Source: Bacteroidota bacterium
GTDB taxonomy: Bacteria > Bacteroidota > Ignavibacteria > Palsa-1295
Reading direction: 5' to 3'
NCBI GenBank assembly: GCA_018266755.1
Contig: JAFDZW010000002.1
Coordinates: 124,001 to 188,000 of the forward strand
Length of the DNA stretch: 64,000 nt
A program made the position numbers and the translations under genes. The notes under the pieces were generated by a model. That model did not search any database. It saw only the letters and a list, made by a program, of their open reading frames with translations, and was not told the DNA's origin. Below are positions 26,194 through 41,800 of the stretch, piece by piece (the first letter of the stretch is position 1; every line of letters begins with the position of its first letter).

Positions 26194-29067
26194 GTGCACG
26201 TTATCGATACAGCGCAATTGGATAGAACAAAGCACACATCCAACAACTGGTATACTGCTTGCATCGACCGCTCATGGTTATGGTGGTGGATTGTGAGCTT
26301 TGCGGTAGTCAACCTGGCCTTTTCCGACCTCGCGAGCGGGCAATGGAGACAAGTGCACAACTTCGGCAACTTCAATCACTACGTTTCGACGGTTTGTTTT
26401 CCCACCGGTGTTGATACAGGCAAATTCGTTTGTCTAGTAGGCACGACGAACTACACGCAGGCGCCGACGAATGCCGAAGTGTGGCGAACAACGGATGGCG
26501 GTGCCAATTGGCAGCTGAGTTTTCGGTCCATCTACGGAATTGAGTTTGGAATCTCCGAGATCGTTTTCAAAGATAGTTTGACTGGTTGGTTTGGCATGCG
26601 AGCCGGTGGAGCAGCTGGTTTAGGTGGTTGTTACAAAACGACCGATGGCGGTGCAACATGGGAAAAACTAACTCTCGACGCAAATACCTCTGGAAGTGAT
26701 AATTGCACGGCGGTCTGCTACAACAGGACCAGTGGAATTCTTTTCCTATCGCGTTGGGAAGCTCCCGCGCTTTGCTCACGCGACGAGGGCCTCTCGTGGC
26801 TTCCGATCATAAGTGGAGGTCAGCAGACAGGTGGAAATGGATTAGCATTTGACGAAGGGAAGACAGGTATTTTGTCTACGGTAGGAAAGATATCCGGTGG
26901 CTCACCTGCATACCTAACCTTTGACGGAGGAAACTCTTGGACAAGGAGCACCATCGATTCCGAGGCATGGCAACCCTGCATGCACCAGGGAAATTTCTTC
27001 CTTGCCAGCGAGAACGCCTCATCGGGAAATGAGAGGGGACTTATACTACGCAGCTCGGATGCAGGTAACACTTGGATCGCATCGCAGCCCCTGCCTTTTG
27101 TGATCACAGGTACAATCCGTGCGGACTCGGGGAGGCTGTTCGTACAGGCCTCAGACAACACAGTGGTGCCTGGTCACCAGTCAAATGGGTCGGGTGTCTA
27201 CGTGGTCTCAAATAGTCTAGCTGGTTGGCATTCAATTTGCGGCCCTAGTGCCGATCGTGATATACGGTTTACTGCTCTTAACAACCACGTCTGGGCGAGC
27301 GACATGCTGGGCACCTTGTGGTCAAATACGACCGGGATCGGAGGTGACGCAACGCTTCAACTATCCACGGATAGTCTTTCTTGTAATGTTTCCGGTTGTC
27401 CGTCGGACGTGGACACCGCCATCGAATTCACATTCTTCGATCCGTGCAACGGCGACCAAGCCACGTTTGTGGGAGCGACCCTCAGCGGTTCGTCCGCATT
27501 TTCAATCGTTCATCCTTCGGACAGCGTTAGGACGATTCACCCCTCCGACAGCATTGTACTTCGCTACCACGGTACGGGTGTCTCCGAAGACAGCGCTGCG
27601 CTACATCTGCGCCTTCATTTGGGCTTCGTCGATAAAGATACCACTATCTCCCTGCATGGTTCGAGTCGCGTAGCTCCTGCTGTACCCATACTCTCATTTA
27701 GCAAACTGTCGTTCGATCACAGCGGGTGTTTGTCAACTGATACGGCCGTTTCAATTACGTATCGCGATACCTGCAGCGGACAGGAGGGAACGCTCGTTCA
27801 GGCTAAACTCCAGGGCTCATCGAATTTCATACTCCTCTCACCGACAGACTCGCCTCGCGTACTGACTGCGAATGATTCGATCCGAATCCGCTTTAGCGCA
27901 ACCCCGGGTGAAACAGACACCGCGCAACTTTTCCTGCGGCTAGAATTGGGTAACACAGAAATCGACACGACGATCTCAATTGTCGGCACGAGTAACAAAC
28001 AGGTCGTCAGGCCCCAGCTATCGGCAACTACGCTTTCATTTGCTGCGATACGATGCCGAAGTAGTCTCGATTCGGTAATCACGTTTGTATTCATCGATAG
28101 CTGTAGCGGCCAATCGGCCGATCTCATCAGCGCCACACTTGTCGGTTCCCAGAGCTTTACATTGCTTTCGCCATGGGATGTGCCACGCACGACACATGCA
28201 GGCGATTCCATCGTGATACACTACGCCCCGCAGATGAGTGGCACGGATAATGCTCAACTCCTCCTCAAGTTTCGTCTCGGCACTTCAGAGTATGATACCA
28301 CGATCACCCTCACCGGCGCAGGGCGGATCCAGAAGGAGAACCTGACGCTGCGTTCCGCGTTCATAACACCATCCGTCGCCACAGGGCAAACCACGAATCT
28401 CGTCATCACTCCAGATAAAGCGATTTCATCTCGTGGCTTGTCAAAGATTGAGTTTGATCTACTCTACAACGGCGACTTGCTCGAAAAGACGGCCGAAGCA
28501 ACGAACGTTGGCGGTGCCACGATAGTGACCACACCCCTAACCCCTTTCCTCGGAAAGGAGAGAGGGGTTCATGTCGTTGTCAATGCTAATGACATGTCTC
28601 TCGACCCGACGCTGGCCATAGCACGACTCACGTTCAAAGCATACCTGACAGATACGACCTCAACGACAGTTGCCATCTCCAACCTTCAGCTCAATGACGG
28701 CGATCAGGACTTTTCAAACTGTGTCCTCTCGGCGGATACCTCTGCGACAACGTTCACGCTTGCGCTGCAATGCGGAGACAGTATCCTTTCTCGCTTTCTT
28801 CGGACGAAGGGGCTCTTCATCGATGCAATCCGTCCGAATCCGTCGTCAGGAGCGGTAAGGCTTTCGGTTCGTTCGGCGGCGGCTGGCGTGGCCGAGATCG
28901 AAGTGGTCAACACACTCGGCGAGGTCGTCTGGCAAGAACAGCAGAATATTCCGAATGGCGATGCGATGATCCGGCTCGATCTGGGCGGACTTGCGAACGG
29001 GATCTATTATCTACGAGTCCGTACTGGTGAGCGTGCCTGCGGCGGGAGTCTGGTGATCGAGCGGTGA
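26194..29067 (+). CDS. Large T9SS-secreted protein: Asp-box propeller, three ~105-residue repeats, cohesin-like domain
   Basis: 957 aa from a GTG at 26194; a TTG at 26218 would also leave the signal peptide (WLWWWIVSFAVVNLAF, cleavage near ASGQ) intact. An N-terminal about 370 residues has Asp-box motifs (TTDGGANWQLS, TTDGGATWEKL, DGGNSWTR, SSDAGNTWIAS). Three tandem homologous domains follow (about 390-490, 495-600, 603-708), each with a Cys-x-x-x...DxCxG pattern, a 'DS(V/P)R' turn and ending 'DTTI(S/T)'. A cohesin-like domain at about 710-840 is interrupted by a short segment, TPLTPFLGKERG, encoded by a dispersed repeat (28529-28570). The C-terminus is a T9SS sorting domain (AIRPNPSSGAVRLSV ... 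LANGIYYLRVRTG). Confidence 0.85.
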   Translation: MHVIDTAQLDRTKHTSNNWYTACIDRSWLWWWIVSFAVVNLAFSDLASGQWRQVHNFGNFNHYVSTVCFPTGVDTGKFVCLVGTTNYTQAPTNAEVWRTTDGGANWQLSFRSIYGIEFGISEIVFKDSLTGWFGMRAGGAAGLGGCYKTTDGGATWEKLTLDANTSGSDNCTAVCYNRTSGILFLSRWEAPALCSRDEGLSWLPIISGGQQTGGNGLAFDEGKTGILSTVGKISGGSPAYLTFDGGNSWTRSTIDSEAWQPCMHQGNFFLASENASSGNERGLILRSSDAGNTWIASQPLPFVITGTIRADSGRLFVQASDNTVVPGHQSNGSGVYVVSNSLAGWHSICGPSADRDIRFTALNNHVWASDMLGTLWSNTTGIGGDATLQLSTDSLSCNVSGCPSDVDTAIEFTFFDPCNGDQATFVGATLSGSSAFSIVHPSDSVRTIHPSDSIVLRYHGTGVSEDSAALHLRLHLGFVDKDTTISLHGSSRVAPAVPILSFSKLSFDHSGCLSTDTAVSITYRDTCSGQEGTLVQAKLQGSSNFILLSPTDSPRVLTANDSIRIRFSATPGETDTAQLFLRLELGNTEIDTTISIVGTSNKQVVRPQLSATTLSFAAIRCRSSLDSVITFVFIDSCSGQSADLISATLVGSQSFTLLSPWDVPRTTHAGDSIVIHYAPQMSGTDNAQLLLKFRLGTSEYDTTITLTGAGRIQKENLTLRSAFITPSVATGQTTNLVITPDKAISSRGLSKIEFDLLYNGDLLEKTAEATNVGGATIVTTPLTPFLGKERGVHVVVNANDMSLDPTLAIARLTFKAYLTDTTSTTVAISNLQLNDGDQDFSNCVLSADTSATTFTLALQCGDSILSRFLRTKGLFIDAIRPNPSSGAVRLSVRSAAAGVAEIEVVNTLGEVVWQEQQNIPNGDAMIRLDLGGLANGIYYLRVRTGERACGGSLVIER
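28529..28570 (-). repeat. CCCCTCC-type palindromic repeat inside a coding sequence
   Basis: Hairpin-forming stretch ACCCCTTTCCTCGGAAAGGA with a flanking AGAGGGGTTC, matching the outer arm of the elements at 29233-29375 and 41801-41902. It is read in frame as TPLTPFLGKERG within the T9SS protein. Confidence 0.75.
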
Positions 29068-33260: not shown

Positions 33261-34022
33261 ATGAATTCGAGAAGAGACTTTTTGAAACAAGCTCTTGGAG
33301 CGACGCTCGTCACTGCAGCCGCACCAATGGTGTGCGCATGTGGGTCGAAGGTATTTGCCATGGGTGGCATTGATAATGGAATACTTGGTACGATCCAGAT
33401 CAAGAACTTCCTCAGCACCTACCCGGCATTGAAGGCAATAGACGGTTCTGTAATTTACCGTCCACCGACACCGAATAATACCAAACCAATTGTCATTACC
33501 TGCACAGGTACCGGACCTTATACATTTAGCATACTGACAGCCATTTGTACGCACCAAGGGTCAACGGTACAAGCATACACGAAGGCTCGTGGCTATATCT
33601 ATTGTTCGACCCACGGCTCAAGATATGGTATTGATGGAAGCGTATTGAATGGACCTGCCACCCTCCCCCTCTCTTCCTATACCTATGAATACGACGCGGC
33701 AAACGACATTCTTTCGATTACCGGCTCGAAGTTGACCGACGGTGTCTCCGAGACCTCTTCGGGCTCGTTGCAGTTGATGCAGAATAGCCCAAACCCGTTT
33801 ACCGAACGCACAAGTATTCGGTTTACTACTCCGTCCGATGGTCACGTAGTTTTCACGGTGAGCAATGAGACCGGGACAGAGGTCGCAACACTCGTTGAGG
33901 GACTCCTTACCGGCGGAGATCATACCGTCGAATTCAATGGCGATGCACTCGCGGCAGGCGTGTACTTCTACCGCCTCTCAACCCCGCATGGAACGCTCGT
34001 CAAGCAGATGGTAAAACAATAA
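33261..34022 (+). CDS. Tat-exported Rieske [2Fe-2S] protein with a T9SS sorting domain
   Basis: 253 aa. MNSRRDFLKQALGAT is a Tat signal (SRRDFLK consensus) ending around AAAPMVCACGS; Cys25/27 might be a lipobox. The Rieske ligands are C96-T-H98 and C115-S-T-H118, 16 residues apart, in the usual CTHQGS and CSTHGSRYG contexts, in the order C-x-H ... C-x-x-H. Residues of about 170-253 are a T9SS type A sorting domain (LMQNSPNPFTERTSIRF ... LAAGVYFYRLSTPHG). Rieske clusters transfer electrons in quinol oxidases and oxygenases. A folded cluster protein exported by Tat and then addressed to T9SS would be a surface redox protein; that route is inference. It lies in its own transcript between a beta-barrel gene and a bidirectional terminator. 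Confidence 0.88.
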   Translation: MNSRRDFLKQALGATLVTAAAPMVCACGSKVFAMGGIDNGILGTIQIKNFLSTYPALKAIDGSVIYRPPTPNNTKPIVITCTGTGPYTFSILTAICTHQGSTVQAYTKARGYIYCSTHGSRYGIDGSVLNGPATLPLSSYTYEYDAANDILSITGSKLTDGVSETSSGSLQLMQNSPNPFTERTSIRFTTPSDGHVVFTVSNETGTEVATLVEGLLTGGDHTVEFNGDALAAGVYFYRLSTPHGTLVKQMVKQ

Positions 34023-34042: not shown

Positions 34043-34077
34043 CAGAACGGGACCCGGAACGTGGGTCCCATTCTGTA
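34043..34077. terminator. Bidirectional hairpin terminator
   Basis: ACAGAACGGGACCC (34043-34056) and GGGTCCCATTCTGT (34064-34077) form a 14-bp stem with one mismatch (G-U in one direction). It lies between the convergent Rieske and beta-barrel genes. Confidence 0.8.
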
Positions 34078-39075: not shown

Positions 39076-41343
39076 TTACTGCAACACCACCATCTTTGAA
39101 AGGCGGCGCTGGCCGTACTCTATCCGGACAATATAACTGCCTGCAGTGTAGTGTTGCATGTCGATCTCAATGCGCGGACCGTCATCCTGGGTGACGGTTC
39201 GCGTGACGAGGTCCTTCCCAAGGATGGAGCTAACCGTGATCGTCATGCTTCCTTCGTAGCTTCCGGAGGGTGAAAGATCGAGCGCGATGCGTTCGTGCGC
39301 CGGATTCGAAACGATGCGGAAGTCGAGCGGCGACTGAAACTGTGATACCGGAACGGACGATTGTCCCAACACTTGGAACGGAATGATCTCTCGGCCGCCG
39401 AAACTTGCGAGATTATTGGATGTCGTTGCATTCCAGATCACGACCTTCTTATCATCGCGTAACGAGTAGCTTCCGAACTTCGCGCCCTGGATGAACCACG
39501 GATACAGTCCTTGCGGGATCTCGCTTTCATCATAGATGATGAAGCGGTAGCAACCCGTTGCCAATCGGAATGTGTCCTTCACGCTCTCGCCATCCGCAAA
39601 GCCGCCCTGGCTATAGAGGATCTTGTCCGATGCATCGCGCACCTCATAACGGATGCCATTGTCAATGCCCGCAGAGGACATGTCATCGACTTTCAATGCC
39701 AGTGCGATCACGCTCGAATAGATCTTCGGCATGAAATAGACCGAGCTGCCCGTATTGTTGTTCGTGTACTCGTCGGCCGTGCCGTTGGGCTGGTCCAGCA
39801 CGACATTGAACGTGTTGGTGTCGGTGCCGAGATTTATGCCCGGCAGGGTGATGACACCGGTCTGGTAATACTTCAACAGACCGGTCCACTGAAACGTATG
39901 ATCGGTCGCGCCGTTGATGCCGTAGCGGATCGTAAGCGATGTCAGATCCGACTTCCCGTTGTTTCGAATATCGATGATCGGCGCCATCTGAGAGCAGATC
40001 GGGTTCGTACGCTTGAACTGGGGTTCGTTCGTCGGAGCCTCGATCGCCATGATGGCCACATCGGTATTGTATTTCGGTCCTTTCGAATAGATCGCCTGCG
40101 CCTGCACAGCGTAACCGCCACCGGACACATTGTAATCTTCGAACCGGTAATCGACATTGATCGAATCTCCCTTTTTGCCGTAGGCCGTCAGATCGTAATC
40201 CCACGGATCTACTTTGTCGCCGGGACACCAACCGGCGCGGCTGAGTGTCCACGTACCGGTCTGCGGATAGGCCGGGTTGAACATGCAGTCGGTGCGCCAG
40301 AGGTGTTGCTCATAGCGTTTCGTCCCGTCGAGCCAGATCTCATGCGTCCGCTCCAAGAACTCTGCCGCGGCCGAAGGTCCGGCGTTGCCATGACCGGTCG
40401 TAAACGTACGGAATGTCACGAAGTCAGCATTGGGGTCCATGTACACGTTCACCGGTTTGACGTAGTTCGAGATCGGGTCGTTGACGTTACCGTACGGATA
40501 ATAGCCATCGTAGAGGCGGTCCACACGATACGTCTCGCGTGCCGGCGAGCCTTCGATCATGTCGAACGACAACGAGTACAGCGAGCCTTGCGTGTAGCCG
40601 TCGTAGGTGGACAAGAACTCGACACTGTCGTGCATCAGGAATGCGTAGTCGGTCACATCCATCGTCCACACATAGGTCCAATTCGTCGGGAAACCCTGTC
40701 CGTACGGAGTGATGTAGCGGGCGACCTCATAATCGAACGTCCGCTCATACGGCCAGTACGCCTTGACCGTCTTCAGATGGTACACGCTATCAGGACGGAC
40801 ATAGAACGAATCGACTTTCGCACCAGTGTTATCATATAAAAAATTCCAGTAACCGGCAGGCCATACGGTGACAGAATCGATCGGCTTCCATGGGTTGACA
40901 AAATTCTGATAGAGCATGATCTGCACCGAGGCAGAAGCTGCGGTATCCGTCTTCTTCTTTGTGGAGTTATATGACGTCGTGATCGTCGGCGAATGGCTGA
41001 ACTGGAAGGAGTCCTGCATTCCGCCGTTGACGGTGAAGTTCGGCGCATCTTTCAGTACCGAATCGATGATGCCGGTATGCTGGCGGAGGATGACCTTCGT
41101 CGTGTAATCCCATTGGCCGCAGCTTGGCTTCGGACATGTCAACCGGTAACGCAGCAACACTTTTTCGTAATGTCCTCCGGCCGCAGGAAAGACGCCCCAA
41201 TTATGGATCGTCCCGGGGAATTGGTCCCAGAGGTGCTTATCAACGACAACGACGTGGGTCGTGTCGCCTACTTTTGCCTGAAGATCGGTAATACCGATGA
41301 GCACCAGCAATGCGGCGCAAAGTACAACGAGGGGATTCTTCAT
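39076..41343 (-). CDS. T9SS-secreted peptide-N-glycosidase F-like protein
   Basis: 755 aa from the ATG at 41341-41343 (MKNPLVVLCAALLVLIG), with a signal peptide ending LQAK/V. Two-part PNGase-F fold: an N-terminal jelly roll with CGQWDYTTKVILR, where the Asp matches the catalytic Asp of PNGase F, and a C-terminal jelly roll with HEIWLDGTKRYEQHLWRTDC ... GTWTLSRAGWCPGDKV. PNGase F cleaves N-linked glycans from asparagine. A beta-rich region and a T9SS sorting domain (FRIVSNPAHERIALDL ... YTAGSYIVRIEYG) follow. Surface deglycosylation of host or environmental glycoproteins is the inference. The frame is open far upstream of the chosen start, without family sequence. Confidence 0.85.
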   Translation of the reverse strand: MKNPLVVLCAALLVLIGITDLQAKVGDTTHVVVVDKHLWDQFPGTIHNWGVFPAAGGHYEKVLLRYRLTCPKPSCGQWDYTTKVILRQHTGIIDSVLKDAPNFTVNGGMQDSFQFSHSPTITTSYNSTKKKTDTAASASVQIMLYQNFVNPWKPIDSVTVWPAGYWNFLYDNTGAKVDSFYVRPDSVYHLKTVKAYWPYERTFDYEVARYITPYGQGFPTNWTYVWTMDVTDYAFLMHDSVEFLSTYDGYTQGSLYSLSFDMIEGSPARETYRVDRLYDGYYPYGNVNDPISNYVKPVNVYMDPNADFVTFRTFTTGHGNAGPSAAAEFLERTHEIWLDGTKRYEQHLWRTDCMFNPAYPQTGTWTLSRAGWCPGDKVDPWDYDLTAYGKKGDSINVDYRFEDYNVSGGGYAVQAQAIYSKGPKYNTDVAIMAIEAPTNEPQFKRTNPICSQMAPIIDIRNNGKSDLTSLTIRYGINGATDHTFQWTGLLKYYQTGVITLPGINLGTDTNTFNVVLDQPNGTADEYTNNNTGSSVYFMPKIYSSVIALALKVDDMSSAGIDNGIRYEVRDASDKILYSQGGFADGESVKDTFRLATGCYRFIIYDESEIPQGLYPWFIQGAKFGSYSLRDDKKVVIWNATTSNNLASFGGREIIPFQVLGQSSVPVSQFQSPLDFRIVSNPAHERIALDLSPSGSYEGSMTITVSSILGKDLVTRTVTQDDGPRIEIDMQHYTAGSYIVRIEYGQRRLSKMVVLQ

Positions 41344-41477
41344 AGTGTGCTGTGATGCAATTGAGCGACTTACAGAATGCCGACGACGAAGGAATCGTTC
41401 GTATATCCAAACTCGGTCTGTAACCTCCTTATTTTTCATCCGAACATCGCTACACACGCGCACAACCTCCCCTAACG

Positions 41478-41503
41478 AAAACGTCCGCCGAAGCGGACGT
41501 TTT
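41478..41503 (-). terminator. Leftward terminator hairpin
   Basis: AAAACGTCCGC / GCGGACGTTTT, perfect 11-bp stem. On the minus strand the loop reads TTCG closed by C-G, a very stable tetraloop, with T residues after it. Probably ends the ABC transporter transcript or read-through from it. Confidence 0.8.
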
Positions 41504-41623
41504 GCGAAACCTGATGGTGCCCATTGTTGGGTTTTTTCCATGGATACAATATAATAGGTCAAGGTGCCTGTGGAAGATTTAATATTACGCGCACCTGTGG
41601 GAATGAAGGTGTAGGGTGTTGTA

Positions 41624-41645
41624 GAGACGCGCACATGCGCGTCTC
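41624..41645. repeat. 22-bp GAGACGCGC palindrome
   Basis: GAGACGCGCACATGCGCGTC then TC; one central mismatch compared with the perfect copies at 29166 and 29425. Confidence 0.8.
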
Positions 41646-41800
41646 CTCTTCCGTCATGTCCTTGCTTCTCGGAGACACGCACAGCCGAGTGTTAATTTAG
41701 GCGACTAAGTCTCTATTTTTATACGATTCAATCCGAGTGATTGCAGTTCTTTACGGGTCTTTATCGGTTTCGGTGCCTTACTATTCCTGCAATTGAACAT

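Follow-up and report, generated by a model that had tools for sequence, protein, structure and literature searches.

A Rieske protein with a twin-arginine signal and a type IX sorting domain in a genome of the Ignavibacteria, and a proposed Tat-to-T9SS route of export

Results and Discussion

The gene and its surroundings

The window, the whole stretch of 64,000 nucleotides that was analysed, carries on its plus strand an open reading frame at 33261..34022 (ATG at 33261, TAA at 34022) encoding a protein of 253 amino acids that begins MNSRRDFLKQALGATLVTAAAPMVCACGSKVFAMGG. Domain and structure matches resolve this protein into a twin-arginine (Tat) signal, a central Rieske domain and a C-terminal sorting domain (CTD) of the type IX secretion system (T9SS), all three on a single polypeptide. 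The twin-arginine motif, S-R-R-D-F-L-K, lies in the n-region at residues 3-9 (33267..33287, with RR at 33270-33275) and is followed by a weakly hydrophobic h-region and c-region, recognised from the Kyte-Doolittle peak, at residues 10-33 (33288..33359). Within the latter are two candidate cleavage sites: a possible signal peptidase I site, V-F-A/M, after residue 33, of which VFA aligns to LLA of a relative, and a lipobox-like V-C-A-C at residues 24-27 (33330..33341), a possible alternative site for signal peptidase II, of which CAC is also found in another relative. The Rieske [2Fe-2S] domain extends over residues ~43-155 (33387..33725) and contains the ligand pairs C96-T-H98 (33546..33554) and C115-S-T-H118 (33603..33614). 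A linker of residues 156-176 (33726..33788), disordered in the structural model at residues 160-167 (pLDDT <50), leads to the T9SS type A sorting domain at residues 177-253 (33789..34019), which starts with NSPNPF and ends with AGVYFYRLSTPHGTLVKQMVKQ.

The gene stands alone, with no redox genes beside it within the window. Its upstream neighbour encodes a protein of 655 amino acids without a Pfam match, and its downstream neighbour is convergent and encodes an outer-membrane-barrel-like protein. A terminator-like hairpin was found by scanning between the convergent genes (34049..34069, plus strand), where a similar number is expected by chance; the signal from terminator and promoter scans around the gene was near chance level. 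Two more large proteins with C-terminal T9SS sorting domains flank the gene at 26194-29067 and 39076-41682, the former being among the sorting-domain matches listed for the genome.

Domain and structure assignments

Both targeting signals scored above the cut-offs of their NCBIfam models, the Tat signal (TIGR01409) at 18.1 bits against 16.7 and the T9SS type A domain (TIGR04183) at 32.1 bits against 23, over residues 177-253. Pfam Rieske (PF00355) matched at 28.7 bits, above its cut-off of 20.3, while Pfam Por_Secre_tail (21.4 bits, cut-off 27) and TAT_signal (14.1, cut-off 22.7) fell below theirs. Residues ~46-155 aligned to PDB chains of Rieske proteins of the b6f and bc1 types and to those of the arsenite oxidase small subunit AioB, and phmmer matched the domain to 8hn2 at 3.6e-9. 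An AlphaFold2 model built with ten family members as input had a mean pLDDT of 77, with the Rieske domain and the C-terminal beta domain both well predicted. Using this model, Foldseek matched the Rieske part to 8hn2 (E 1.6e-6, TMt 0.71) and, separately, the C-terminal part to the T9SS protein PorU (6za2) and the CTD of mirolase (8qb1; TMt 0.61). The C-terminal sorting domain thus has the CTD fold, as does T9SS type A cargo.

A sequence-only reading of the locus had named SRRDFLK at the N-terminus, both Rieske ligand pairs in the centre and a T9SS sorting domain in the last ~80 residues, and each of these parts was borne out by the model scores and the structure matches. Two features had escaped it: the replacement of the disulfide cysteines and the lipobox-like VCAC inside the signal. 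In bc1-type Rieske proteins two cysteines beside the cluster form a disulfide. The query has the CxH and CxxH ligand pairs within a Rieske fold, and both cysteines of the bc1/b6f-type disulfide beside them are replaced by Ser/Thr (CTHQGS / CSTHGS). The Rieske [2Fe-2S] cluster is characterised by EPR at g about 1.9.

Conservation of the architecture

Homologues were sought with a profile of the signal and Rieske part in 391 genomes of the class and 395 of the phylum; a named-genome scan with the full-length query returned mostly sorting-domain-only matches. The loci fetched contained 42 distinct Tat-Rieske-CTD proteins, from approximately ten families of the class together with one from another class. 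Twin arginines were present in all 42. In relatives at 25-36% identity R4, R5, C96, H98, C115 and the glycines of the CTD were invariant, and H118 was present in at least 90%. Invariance of the twin arginines, ligands and CTD glycines at this level of identity, with RR in every homologue, is more than would be expected by chance. A chance co-occurrence of the three parts was considered and ruled out by the homologues with the same arrangement.

Spacing of the ligands was normal in 36 of the 42 proteins. In the other six, encoded at five loci of which one carries two such genes, the second loop was altered to C-x3-H, C-x6-H or CPH, and one of them is a relative from the query's own family; judged by their sequences, these proteins may have lost the cluster or may bind it differently. 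Among the 36 proteins of normal spacing, both disulfide cysteines were found in 24 and neither in 12, the query included. Given that the query lacks both disulfide cysteines and that the second loop is altered in 6/42, the presence of a cluster is uncertain in some members.

Tat-type signals among the sorting-domain proteins of the genome

At least 150 sorting-domain matches were obtained in this genome, and N-termini were compared for 115 CTD proteins in the stretches around such matches. In nearly all of them the signal was of Sec type, strongly hydrophobic and with a cleavage site of the AQ type. Signals of the form RRxF[LV] were found in six: the Rieske query, four DUF1501 proteins and a CueO-like multicopper oxidase. 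Tat signals are known to be of low hydrophobicity. In these six proteins the peak hydrophobicity of the h-region lay between 1.5 and 2.0; in 107 others its median was 2.84 (Mann-Whitney p=4e-5). Start codons for this comparison were assigned by one rule for all proteins, with a simple script whose scoring itself draws on hydrophobicity. The h-region of the query was weakly hydrophobic by this measure, with a peak 11-residue Kyte-Doolittle value of 1.95. The RR motif and a Tat-like h-region are thus found together, in one and the same set of proteins, Tat character being judged here from signal composition. A loose RR in five other CTD proteins was not counted, their signals being hydrophobic and Sec-like.

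The search for further Tat-signal proteins ending in sorting domains, proposed as a check in the sequence-only reading, therefore yielded five more in this genome, and a sample of DUF1501 proteins extended the result across the phylum. The four DUF1501 genes lie at 113.8 kb of contig C1, 89.6 kb of C2, and 841 kb and 1331 kb of C5. Proteins sampled from 20 genomes across the phylum had RR in 19 cases and RK in one, a share for which the sample was unselected; all 20 had the sorting domain, a share that is not a population frequency because the sample was chosen for long frames. A DUF1800 gene often comes directly after the DUF1501 gene, as at two of the four loci in this genome, where the DUF1800 protein has an RR signal of its own. 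The multicopper oxidase (C5, 1303960-1305942, minus strand) combines an RRTFLA signal with a T9SS sorting domain and so adds another cofactor enzyme that bears the two signals. Like the query, the DUF1501 proteins and the oxidase carry the signal pair in the same genome, and the former do so phylum-wide; unlike it, they have central domains unrelated to the Rieske fold. Comparison of sequences thus places the arrangement in many bacterial families and documents its recurrence in unrelated proteins.

Export machinery and proposed route

The genome encodes the Tat translocase component TatC (204 bits) and the T9SS proteins SprA/Sov, the translocon (793 bits), PorU, the sortase (687 bits), and PorV (319 bits), the gene for which adjoins that for PorU. 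The GldM model had no match in this genome, nor in any of the control genomes, which leaves the negative without weight.

The reading favoured here, to which a probability of roughly 0.72 is given, is a relay in which Tat and then T9SS would bring a pre-folded, cluster-loaded Rieske protein to the cell surface. The protein would fold in the cytoplasm and acquire its [2Fe-2S] cluster there, and its twin-arginine signal would have it moved in the folded state across the inner membrane by the Tat translocase. Signal peptidase I, cutting near residue 33, would most likely then remove the signal, and the CTD would bring the protein to PorV/SprA for folded passage across the outer membrane, where PorU would cut off the CTD to leave a one-electron carrier, surface-bound or released. 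This two-step path had been put forward in the earlier reading, and the comparative evidence favours it (RR throughout the family, low hydrophobicity, the machinery, and the DUF1501 and multicopper oxidase proteins); Tat use, loading of the cluster before export, T9SS passage and an electron-carrier role are what we infer from that evidence.

Export by Sec despite the RR would mean that the protein crosses the inner membrane unfolded, that the cluster is inserted in the periplasm or absent, and that ordinary T9SS passage follows. Sec signals can contain RR, and the altered ligand loops of some relatives would suit such a route. Periplasmic Rieske proteins, however, are classic Tat substrates, and together with RR in all 42 homologues, the low hydrophobicity of the h-region and the strongly hydrophobic Sec-type signals found instead in the genome's remaining CTD proteins this makes Sec export improbable by a wide measure. 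It would nonetheless agree with reviews, which assign T9SS effectors to Sec (PMC5445135, PMC10202324). Less credible still is a C-terminal domain that serves for binding alone, as an Ig-like (FlgD-type) module with no secretion signal, on a protein that stays in the periplasm. A FlgD_ig match of 18.3 bits, under the cut-off, and the loss of the N-terminal PNPF motif of the CTD in some relatives of one family (f4) point that way; against it stand the TIGR04183 score well above cut-off, the fold match to T9SS CTDs, the PNPF start and the basic end, as type A CTDs typically have them, and the presence in this genome of at least 150 such domains with SprA, PorU and PorV.

The lipobox-like motif raises a different outcome, that of a Tat lipoprotein. 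Signal peptidase II would cut before Cys27 (MVCA/C) and a lipid would anchor the Rieske protein, in the periplasm or the outer membrane, its CTD being idle or giving surface display of the lipoprotein. M-V-C-A-C matches the prokaryotic lipobox pattern, T-C-A-C occurs in a relative, and most CTD-less Tat-Rieskes of the lineage, a group with two members in this genome, look like lipoproteins. A broad lipobox was found in 25 of 35 CTD-less Tat-Rieskes as against 3 of 42 bearing a CTD (Fisher p=3e-9), and a strict one in 13/35 as against 6/42 (p=0.03), counts that are not independent events since the CTD state changed only about three times on the tree, too few for an independent-contrast test. 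The cysteine at +1 is accordingly not conserved in the family, being missing from most CTD-bearing homologues, though the query, in its VCAC, and a few more proteins have it. In addition, the V-F-A site downstream resembles one for signal peptidase I, and the other CTD proteins inspected in this genome include no convincing lipoprotein. VCAC keeps lipidation of the query protein within consideration, as an unlikely outcome.

The distribution of lipoboxes may be read as that of an anchored Tat-Rieske which acquired a sorting domain and lost the anchoring lipid, and Tat-Rieskes with and without the CTD may be read as having alternative destinations. The two CTD-less genes in this genome are in tandem at 117767-118842 of contig C2 (minus strand), on the same contig as the query and ~39 kb away, and both have lipoboxes and lack the sorting domain.

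Relation to described systems

That described T9SS cargo uses Sec, the premise of the sequence-only reading, agrees with the reviews (PMC5445135, PMC9251779, PMC10202324), according to which such cargo is exported by Sec and folds in the periplasm; a 2023 review extends this to all T9SS effectors (PMC10202324). The signal of the query is Tat-type. A Sec-type signal is the point at which the query differs and is no defining part of the T9SS sorting signal. T9SS is described as moving cargo in the folded state, and its SprA channel measures ~7 nm across (PMC7463736). With type A cargo such as RgpB and mirolase the query shares a C-terminal TIGR04183 domain of ~75 residues, the CTD fold and a genome that encodes the machinery; it differs from them in its Tat-type signal and metal-cluster domain.

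Tat-exported Rieske proteins, namely the bc1/b6f subunit and AioB, likewise have a twin-arginine signal, the Rieske fold and CxH/CxxH ligands, and b6f-type and AioB-type proteins are the best Rieske matches of the query. Unlike them, the query has a T9SS sorting domain and lacks a membrane hinge, an adjoining gene for a partner oxidase and both disulfide cysteines. Export in two steps, by Sec or Tat and then across the outer membrane, is known from the type II system (PMC9127263). Its Tat substrates resemble the proposed route in their folded Tat crossing followed by a second machine at the outer membrane; here that second machine would instead be T9SS, reached by way of a C-terminal sorting domain.

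What appears to be new, on the strength of these signals, is T9SS type A cargo with Tat in place of Sec, and earlier mention is possible in the subscription literature. A literature search, with most subscription papers outside its reach, returned no paper linking DUF1501 with T9SS and only one general review for Rieske proteins with T9SS. If the proposed route is correct, T9SS would also accept cargo arriving already folded with its cofactor, and the surface repertoire of these bacteria would be widened to redox enzymes assembled in the cytoplasm. With Tat-CTD proteins one could then test directly whether a fully folded, cluster-loaded protein can get through the SprA channel. A wider proposal, offered tentatively and with rather more doubt than belief, is that a general Tat-to-T9SS relay operates in Bacteroidota and relatives, by which proteins that carry a cofactor or otherwise fold in the cytoplasm (Rieske, multicopper oxidase, DUF1501) might cross both membranes folded, the Rieske members serving as a heme-free surface electron carrier between the redox chains of the envelope and donors or acceptors outside the cell.

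Gene neighbourhoods and electron transfer

A part in extracellular electron transfer had also been suggested for the query. This suggestion fared less well than the assignment of the domains: the gene is without a redox neighbour in the window, and none of the genome's CTD proteins that were inspected had a CxxCH heme motif, on which ground a chain of surface cytochromes was rejected for this genome. Redox neighbours are present at approximately half of the relatives' loci. A gene for a NuoE-like thioredoxin [2Fe-2S] protein is directly upstream of the Rieske-CTD gene at seven loci in families f24, f27, f29 and f30; downstream in f29 and at one f30 locus (three loci) is a gene for an ethylbenzene-dehydrogenase-type heme-binding lipoprotein. 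At three loci of family f19, the genes form a conserved run, in which one or two for CCP/MauG di-heme lipoproteins come before the Rieske-CTD gene and one for a second Tat-Rieske, a lipoprotein, comes after it. These neighbours make an electron-carrier role plausible for the Rieske-CTD protein, and the loci of the homologues suggest heme proteins as its electron partners in some lineages. A role in electron transfer at the surface is possible and is held less firmly than the route of export. In the query's own family, the Rieske-CTD gene is followed by a gene for a CTD-bearing M1 peptidase.
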